A program made the position numbers and the translations under genes. A DNA stretch of 64,000 nt from Gadus chalcogrammus (lineage: Eukaryota; Chordata; Actinopteri; Gadiformes; Gadidae): positions 16,689,897 to 16,753,896 of the forward strand of contig NC_079414.1 of the NCBI RefSeq assembly GCF_026213295.1. Direction: 5' to 3'. Below, one piece after another: positions 7,779 to 13,430 of the stretch. Under the pieces are notes generated by a model. It worked only from the letters and a program-made list of their open reading frames with translations, was not told the DNA's origin and did not search any database. Each line of letters begins with the position of its first letter. Position 1 is the stretch's first letter.

Positions 7779-7905
7779 CGCCGGCCGCAGATGGAAGGCT
7801 GGCGGTCACTGAGGTCGTCCGTCTTGGCCTCTGTGATCTTGAAGGACACTCTGTGCAGATCCGAGATCCCGATCTCCATGTCTTCCAGCATGCCGATCTC
7901 CTCAC
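7779..7905 (-). CDS. inpp4b: inpp4b exon E12
   Basis: The acceptor is TGTGAAG at 7906-7912 and the donor is CG/GTGAGG at 7779/7778. The exon starts with two bases (GT) that complete the Ser codon split with E11, then reads EEIGMLEDMEIGISDL, HRVSFKITEAKTDD and ends in ICGRR. This matches the conserved segment that leads into the phosphatase domain. It is 127 bp and ends after the second codon base. The next exon should begin with the EHYVV-like segment; none is visible down to position 1. Confidence 0.92.
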
Positions 7906-8370
7906 CTTCACAACACAGCACAGAGCAGCGGCGTGTCAGAGCTCCATCCTGAGACGCTCACCCAGAGACTCTGACTGACTGGATCACGATGCCTACAGTA
8001 TTGGCTGTTGTACATGTTTATCTGCCTTATTGATCGCCTTTGTACTGATGTCTCAGATATTATCACTCCTCTGGTTCAATTCCCACCGATGGTCCTATGT
8101 TACATTTCATTCCTTCCCGATTTCAAACCACTCTCTAAAACAAATAATACATCCTAAAATCTGCATGTAAGAAAAGAAATTGCAATTAATCTGAAAATCT
8201 GTAATTACAAAGAGAGAGGGATGACCCATGACCTCTTGCTTCCAAAATGCCCTGCTTTTTGTCACTGTGGGAACAGCCAAAGCTAAACCTTCAGGGAAAT
8301 CCTTTTGAACGTGTAGTATAAAAATAACTCTTAATAAGTAGTAGTTTTAGGGACACTGGAAAGCGCAGGT
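7906..8370 (-). other. Intron E11/E12, part downstream of the minisatellite
   Basis: This is non-coding sequence between the end of the tandem donor array and the E12 acceptor. I recognise no gene, RNA or transposable element in it. Confidence 0.6.
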
Positions 8371-9049
8371 GGGTTACTCACTGTAGGTGCTAAGGGCCCC
8401 AGGCGGGCTGTGGTACTCACTGTAGGTGCTAAGGGCCCCAGGAGGGCTGTGGTACTCACTGTAGGTGCTAAGGGCCCCAGGCGGGCTTTGGTACTCACTG
8501 TAGGTGCTAAGGGCCTCAGGCGGGCTGTGGTACTCACTGTAGGTGCTAAGGGCCCCAGGCGGGCTGTGGTACTCACTGTAGGTGCTAAGGGCCTCAGGCG
8601 GGCTGTGGTACTCACTGTAGGTGCTAAGGGCCCCAGGCGGGCTGTGGTACTCACTGTAGGTGCTAAGGGCCTCAGGCGGGCTGTGGTACTCACTGTAGGT
8701 GCTAAGGGCCCCAGGCGGGCTGTGGTACTCACTGTAGGTGCTAAGGGCCTCAGGCGGGCTGTGGTACTCACTGTAGGTGCTAAGGGCCCCAGGCGGGCTG
8801 TGGTACTCACTGTAGGTGCTAAGGGCCTCAGGCGGGCTGTGGTACTCACTGTAGGTGCTAAGGGCCCCAGGCGGGCTGTGGTACTCACTGTAGGTGCTAA
8901 GGGCCCCAGGCGGGCTGTGGTACTCACTGTAGGTGCTAAGGGCCTCAGGCGGGCTGTGGTACTCACTGTAGGTGCTAAGGGCCCAAGGCGGGCTGTGGTA
9001 CTCACTGTAGGTGCTAAGGGCCCAAGGCGGGCTGTGGTACTCACTGTAG
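8371..9049 (-). repeat. 39-bp minisatellite containing the E11 splice donor, 18 donor copies
   Basis: On the transcript strand the word CTACAGTGAGT recurs every 39 bp from 9049 down to 8386, an interval of exactly 17 x 39 = 663 bp, giving 18 copies. Each unit consists of 12 bases of exon E11 (AGCACCTACA region), the GTGAGT donor and 21 further intronic bases ending GGCCCTT. Translated in the exon frame a unit reads SEYHSPPxALSTY, where x is W, E or G, with no stop until a TAA just after the last copy. The order of x from the exon outward is W W E G G E G E G E G E G E G G G; one unit has Q for H. Because 39 is divisible by three, use of any donor keeps the phase needed by E12. Confidence 0.95.
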
Positions 9050-9168
9050 GTGCTCAGCAGGCTCTCAAACTGGGCCAGCACCCCCACCAGATGGAGCTGC
9101 TTCAGGAAGCCCTCGTCCTGCATGCCAGCAGACAGCCGCATGACGAACCCACAGGCCAGCGCAGACAA
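9045..9168 (-). CDS. inpp4b: inpp4b exon E11, last exon before the donor array
   Basis: The acceptor is TGTACAG at 9169-9175 and the first donor is CTACA/GTGAGT at 9045/9044. The exon reads [41 protein letters not shown] and ends after the first base of the next Ser codon, which E12 completes. It is 124 bp, with phase 0 at the start and 1 at the end. The upstream intron consists of (TG)n right to the acceptor with no ordinary pyrimidine tract. Downstream, 17 more identical donors follow. If a distal donor is used the protein gains multiples of 13 residues. Confidence 0.94.
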
Positions 9169-9170
9169 CT

Positions 9171-10028
<858 letters not shown>

Positions 10029-10029
<1 letters not shown>

Positions 10030-10797
10030 TTTGTTAGGAGTGTGACTACTATATAACCAGTAATTGTGCTTCCATTGAAGTATGAACTAGCATTCCCTGC
10101 ATTAGGCCTTGCCATTACTGCTCTGCCTTCTTGGATTTATTTTGTACATGTGCAACTTCAGAAACAAAGTCTTCAGACATCTGTACAACTTTGGAAACAC
10201 TGCAGTGCCTGGAGCAGGAAACTGAAAATAATCCATGTGGACATTAGGGAGCCTGTGTGTGGAAGTCGTAACACAACCAACCTTATTATTAATGTTAGCT
10301 ATAAATCTGGAGGAGAAAGCCCTGCCAAAGCACCTCTGGCTTGTAAGTAGGAGTAGGGGTAGGCTGGGGGTCAAGTCTGACAGCTGGCCAGACAGGAGAA
10401 CGTAAAGTCGACCGACAGCCAGCGCTAAGCGGGATTTGTCGCAGCCATGATTCAGGACAAGGAATGCCGAAACAAGAATTTGAGGAGCAGGTGGGAGTCT
10501 TGCTGGATCCAACCCAGTGTCATTTGGAGCTGGGAGTTGACCACTGAAAACACAACACTATCCTCCACTTTATATTATTAACGGTGACAGTCCGAAATTT
10601 GACTTTTATATCAAAACCATTTTTACGTCATTGCATGTATTTTAGATCATAACGGTGTGGGAACTACACGCCCCAACTCTCAGCCCAAAACATGATTTCT
10701 AAAATCTCATAGTGTTCGACTTCCATCTGAAACAGTGGGTTTACTGGCTCTTTAAGTGTTTTTCTCCGTGCCTTATTGGAGAACCTTGGCTACCTAC
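10029..10797 (-). other. Intron E10/E11, non-repetitive part
   Basis: Lies between the CA array and E10. Open frames of about 94 and 136 codons on the two strands have no recognisable protein features. No other feature was seen. Confidence 0.6.
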
Positions 10798-13063: not shown

Positions 13064-13430
13064 CTGCAAGAGCACAAGAGACAGAGTGAGTTGGAAATCA
13101 GCCCGAAGGGAATCAGCCCAAATGACCATTTGACAATCTTCTCTTGCTCTCTTTTCATCCATCTCTGCCAGTTTTTTGTCACATTTCTACGTGTGAGGCG
13201 AATGACAGCGATATATCTATACACCACAGATTTACAAAAGACAAACAGAAAAGTAACTTTTCCTTCTAAATGTTGGTGTTCAACCCACTTTTAAGCAGAA
13301 CATATTCAAAAGTTTCCTTCCTCCATAAAGGTAATAACTCACAGCCAATCAGAGTGACTATATCCAGAACACAAAAAAGGCTAACAAGTGGGCAGATGAC
13401 ATCACAGAAGCAGCAACCAATCCCACTTGC
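13064..13430 (-). other. Intron E8/E9 with GC-AG borders
   Basis: This 367-bp intron starts GCAAGT on the transcript strand (13430-13425) and ends TTGCAG. GC donors normally carry the remaining consensus unchanged, as here (GCAAGT). The nearest GT (GTGGGC, five bases upstream) would break the frame into E9, so the GC donor is the only one that joins DEEEW to DRVWANV in phase 0. Confidence 0.85.

Follow-up and report, generated by a model that had tools for sequence, protein, structure and literature searches.

An exon-end minisatellite in inpp4b of Gadus chalcogrammus carries 18 identical, in-frame splice donors

Exon E11 of inpp4b in Gadus chalcogrammus runs directly into a 39-bp minisatellite, in which the native splice donor is followed by 17 identical copies, each of them leaving an open frame when joined to the next exon. 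This array is best read as a near-neutral exon-end minisatellite, where splicing goes mostly through the first donor and an occasional slip to a later one would insert 13 residues for every unit passed, a reading to which we give a probability of about 0.55, and there is a real chance that the inpp4b isoforms predicted from it, longer by multiples of 13 residues, are made at a low level. The repetition of the donor is itself far beyond chance, while the array being in frame and open is within luck. A splice-donor minisatellite is already known in kind from IFI6, and the inpp4b array is a further case.

The window, which is the whole stretch of 64,000 nucleotides analysed here, corresponds to G000:C3:16689897-16753896 of a 630-Mb assembly, with inpp4b on its minus strand. 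In it, 11 exons and their splice sites were placed by tblastn and splice-site inspection, where the query was a human INPP4B sequence used as an approximate guide. E11 (9045..9168, minus strand, 124 bases) ends in phase 1 at a border that agrees with the junction position in fish INPP4B proteins, while E12 (7779..7905, minus strand), located by the same two means, starts at 7905. The exon at 13805-13431 has a donor of GC type (GCAAGT, window 13422-13430). As the CKSAKDRT exon (L009) and the final exon (L010) are found beyond the window, inpp4b looks intact. Orthology to INPP4B, the type II inositol 3,4-bisphosphate 4-phosphatase, is indicated by matches of 96-98% to the gadid proteins in the region queried, and the CX5R motif is present intact further downstream than the array; the closest proteins for this region among the best 120 of 4215 matches are those of Gadus morhua (98%), G. 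macrocephalus (97%), Merluccius polli (97%) and Lota lota (96%). Neither E11 plus E12 nor the reading frame of the array matched any family in Pfam.

The minisatellite was delimited by Tandem Repeats Finder at 8375..9054 (minus strand, 680 bp, 17.4 copies, 97% matches), and thus is an array of minisatellite size starting at an exon-intron border, as in IFI6. Its minus strand contains 18 GTGAGT sites, with the G at 9044, 9005 and so on to 8381, and all 17 intervals are exactly 39 bases. Every one of the 18 sites is an intact donor reading AGCACCTACA/GTGAGTA, the downstream donors being identical to the first across 17 bases. The native donor (donor 1; GT at 9043..9044, minus strand) connects to E12 in the same frame as in fish proteins, and the 17 further donors span 8380..9005 on the same strand (G at 9005 - 39k, k = 0..16). 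This exact series confirms the gene, the exon border and the 18 equal donors proposed in an earlier note on this DNA, which also placed the unit correctly across the border but divided it into 12 exonic and 27 intronic bases; the exact exonic share is 10 bases (9054-9045), with 29 intronic bases per unit. Sequence differences among the 17 units are confined to columns 11, 17, 21 and 22 and leave the donor unaffected; as read from the unit alignment, three of these changes are nonsynonymous and one is synonymous. In units 6 to 14 one codon switches between GGG and GAG from unit to unit, the pattern expected from a recent expansion of a 78-bp dimer. A 78-base probe from the array, searched against its own genome, gave eight matches, all on the inpp4b array, in a search that is not exhaustive for repeats.

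An in-frame TAA stands directly after the last donor (8374..8376, minus strand, exon frame), so that full intron retention would terminate the protein there. No decayed extra unit was detected above shuffled sequence downstream of the array. In other fish genome fragments, predicted proteins that continue past E11 into the intron terminate shortly after the donor, P0159 and P0162 after STYSE, P0155 after STYSEYL and P0134 after STYSQ, where each end may be either a stop or the end of a contig; if they are stops, the sequence flanking the last donor of the array would resemble the old start of the intron.

All 18 joins from E11 through a donor to E12 are open, and each extra donor would add 13 residues (unit SEYHSPPxALSTY), up to 221. 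The common phase, the stop-free unit and the gain of 13 residues per unit, with 221 as the maximum, had been claimed before and hold, while the placement of the insert "just before the phosphatase domain" proves loose, as the insertion point lies approximately 170 residues ahead of CKSAKDRT by the human guide. Such an open frame is no rarity. Shuffled units are open in the given frame with a frequency of 0.73, and with one chance in three that a period is divisible by 3, an array would be in frame and open with a probability of 1/3 x 0.73 = about 0.24, or roughly one in four per array.

Donor-repeating arrays were also collected elsewhere in the same genome. The 47 loci cut out comprise all 22 arrays among the AGGTGAGT matches listed, all 12 of AGGTAAGT, 7 from AAGGTGAGT, a set which omits four further places of one family on contig C4, and 6 chosen by eye among the CAGGTGAGT matches listed. 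Nine comparison arrays were kept by eye, not by a blind rule, for an exon-like open frame reaching the first donor, and open frames of at least 25 codons were present in several of the 38 loci dropped as well. The nine arrays have 69 extra donors between them, of which just 1 is in phase and free of a stop, as against 17 of 17 in inpp4b. The best supported cases are EXOSC10 and DCAF15, the two for which the next exon was seen, while the seven others are weaker. The EXOSC10 array (L055; G000:C1:28442500-28444800; exon match E 3e-17) has 13 donors with a 32-bp period and is out of frame, and with the next exon KYSKPIFTEESY the frame is kept without an earlier stop by donor 1 only (1/13). The DCAF15 array (L064; G000:C3:28276200-28278500; E 5.6e-17) has 8 donors spaced by 46 bp, once by 42 bp, and is likewise out of frame; its next exon reads SLQVLADSDRCTWIVL followed by a stop, which we take to be the end of DCAF15, and again donor 1 alone keeps the frame without an earlier stop (1/8).

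Among the weaker cases, the reading frame of a glycoprotein hormone receptor (L079; G000:C5:24223600-24225800; E 6e-25) runs directly into a GTGAGT array. The seventh-helix exon was not found in about 10 kb downstream, which leaves the exon border there unproven, and the locus may be a broken receptor copy or an unusual intron. An exon of the galactosyltransferase family with a donor array scores above the Pfam cut-off for Glyco_transf_7C and CHGN, while the UGGT and collagen array exons give matches below the cut-off or weak ones, the collagen-like exon (L083; G000:C20:23952400-23954500) consisting of 54 bases, after which comes a donor array with a period of mostly 33 bp. The open frames before the donor arrays of L063, L081 and L087 had no homology match, and NCBIfam assigned no family to the two comparison exons searched.

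Counts of donor words were set against a reversed-pattern control, giving 665 versus 395 for AGGTGAGT, 21 versus 289 for AGGTAAGT, 60 versus 14 for AAGGTGAGT, 209 versus 38 for CAGGTGAGT and 510 versus 160 for ACAGTGAGT, where at least 16 of the 510 belong to the window's own array. No enrichment of donor words in arrays is claimed and the idea was dropped, because the sign differs from word to word and overlapping matches count one array repeatedly. A 1.6-kb array at G000:C3:28302866-28304492 consists mostly of 26-bp units, many of them with ACAGTGAGT.

These findings may be joined in a simple mechanism. The 39-bp repeat would have grown from the last 10 bases of E11 into the intron, copying the donor 17 times in frame, and growth in this direction would spare both the exon and its first donor, so that selection would hardly see the array grow. 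Donor-repeating arrays are tolerated at exons where hardly any donor but the first is functional. As heavy use of later donors would damage most of the comparison genes, the first donor probably dominates there, and with next to no other productive donor in those arrays, donor 1 would be expected to prevail as a rule. Slips in inpp4b cause no frameshift, and longer isoforms are therefore expected in this gene at a low level. Counted for this near-neutral reading are the 18 open joins, the contrast with 1/69, the insert-free fish proteins (120/120), the precedent of IFI6, the repeat load of cod and the odds of 0.24; one fully open array in ten is within that estimate. Counted against it are the equality of the donors in sequence and the selection of the comparison arrays by eye from 47 loci. 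Moreover, selection for frame in inpp4b is another possible reading of the difference between 17/17 and 1/69.

The closest competitor, already among the options of the earlier note, is a silent intronic minisatellite, where the first donor alone is ever used and the mRNA is unaffected. It lies near the preferred reading and appears rather unlikely, though a serious candidate. It agrees with the protein searches: 7987 candidates scored against the whole array yielded no unit-bearing protein, none of the 48 matches to a three-unit query contains the unit, and an insertion at the E11/E12 junction is absent from all of the best 120 of 4215 fish matches (database clustered at 90%), which read SLL-STYSEE[IFV]-GMLED throughout. 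It also agrees with the tolerance of out-of-frame arrays in other genes. Total silence is harder to reconcile with the donors themselves, as the downstream sites equal donor 1 over 17 bases and in U1 pairing, where each array donor has a U1 duplex energy of -7.1 kcal/mol, which ties for sixth place among the 11 in inpp4b, and the last one -7.3. Nor would folding hide them, since all 20 shuffles of the 839-base stretch with the array fold more strongly than the stretch itself. The two downstream repeat donors that IFI6 employs, according to the available part of PMC4526556, argue against it as well. Two GT sites in the same intron, at 7961 and 8086, pair more strongly with U1 than the array donors.

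The extra donors might instead serve as a platform that holds U1 and helps to define E11, whose acceptor would have been worn down by TG repeats. TG tracts beside acceptors can cause exon skipping, as in CFTR exon 9, and a TG-rich tract of 872 bases (9169..10040, minus strand) reaches the E11 acceptor, which with 9 of 17 pyrimidines has the fewest among the 11 placed inpp4b acceptors. A role in U1 support is thus thinkable, but it is putative, drawn from sequence features of inpp4b, and we consider it very improbable.

The earlier note had suggested a length-variable coding module, and in a selected form of this idea the array is kept since SEYHSPPxALSTY repeats of variable length serve the protein. 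The 17/17 productive extra donors, against 1/69 in the comparison arrays, would suit it. The junction stretch STYSEE[IFV], on the other hand, has a single length in 120/120 fish proteins, six gadid representatives included, the open frame is within luck, and the three nonsynonymous and one synonymous unit changes give no sign of constraint at the protein level. The repeat, whose presence would be expected of a coding VNTR, was seen in none of the 120 listed fish INPP4B proteins, a result that is informative only for species carrying the array. As Gadus, Merluccius and Lota may lack the array, their insert-free proteins may say nothing on donor choice, and clustering at 90% could hide rare isoforms, against which the result is weak. 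The coding module accordingly finds no support in these proteins, and selection for it is most improbable. Two AlphaFold predictions had mean pLDDT of 33 and 42, and no structural reading is drawn from them.

It would be equally surprising if the last donor won, with U1 on all sites, the donor nearest E12 used and a main protein longer by 221 residues. When strong donors are duplicated, splicing can favour the copy closer to the following exon, and this intron-proximal preference in duplicated-donor experiments counts against the preferred reading and for use of the last donor, as do the equality of the donors and the marginally better U1 pairing of the last. The exon would then go from 124 to 787 bases, the whole-array search found no protein of that kind, and EXOSC10 and DCAF15 would be disrupted if they followed such a rule. 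An assembly artefact, with a true allele of one or a few units, is hardly credible: tandem repeats are error-prone in assembly (PMC6868369, in the part available), but the 680-bp array lies within a 28.6-Mb contig, its unit variants follow a patterned order and similar arrays occur elsewhere in the genome.

The human 6-16/IFI6 minisatellite reportedly provides multiple splice donor sites (as described by Turri et al. in 1995), which contradicts the previous statement that no system of this form had been described. In IFI6, two downstream repeat units act as donors and yield three mRNA species, as stated in the available part of PMC4526556. The inpp4b minisatellite likewise sits at an exon-intron border with units that supply splice donors, while it belongs to another gene and lineage, has a unit of 39 bp as against 12 bp in IFI6, and its donor use is predicted where that of IFI6 is reported. 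Among the listed matches to minisatellites and splice donors in the literature, as far as their text was available, no donor-repeating array was recognised beyond IFI6. Mucin-type VNTRs are exonic coding tandem repeats. The inpp4b array resembles them in a period that is a multiple of 3, an open frame and likely length variation, but with donor 1 in use it is intronic and codes only through donor choice. It shares with EXOSC10, DCAF15 and the seven weaker cases the origin of the array at a coding exon end with GTGAGT repeated, and differs in that all 17 of its extra donors are in phase and stop-free, against a single one of the 69 in those nine. Atlantic cod has a very high density of tandem repeats, 21% of which are heterozygous, according to the available part of PMC5241972, the main text of which does not mention splicing.

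The inpp4b array offers a natural experiment on spliceosomal choice between many equal, evenly spaced 5' splice sites, where the read-out comes in steps of 13 residues and the out-of-frame arrays of EXOSC10 and DCAF15 are natural contrasts. In a bolder and doubtful extension, repeat-rich gadid genomes would repeatedly turn donors into minisatellites, and inpp4b, being in frame, would gain an 18-rung isoform ladder of a phosphoinositide phosphatase that depends on allele length and spans 0 to 221 residues. The recurrence of such arrays behind several genes in one genome is more interesting than the inpp4b array alone, and should exon-end minisatellites prove common among gadids, they would offer tandem repeats a simple route into coding sequence that leaves the parent exon unbroken.
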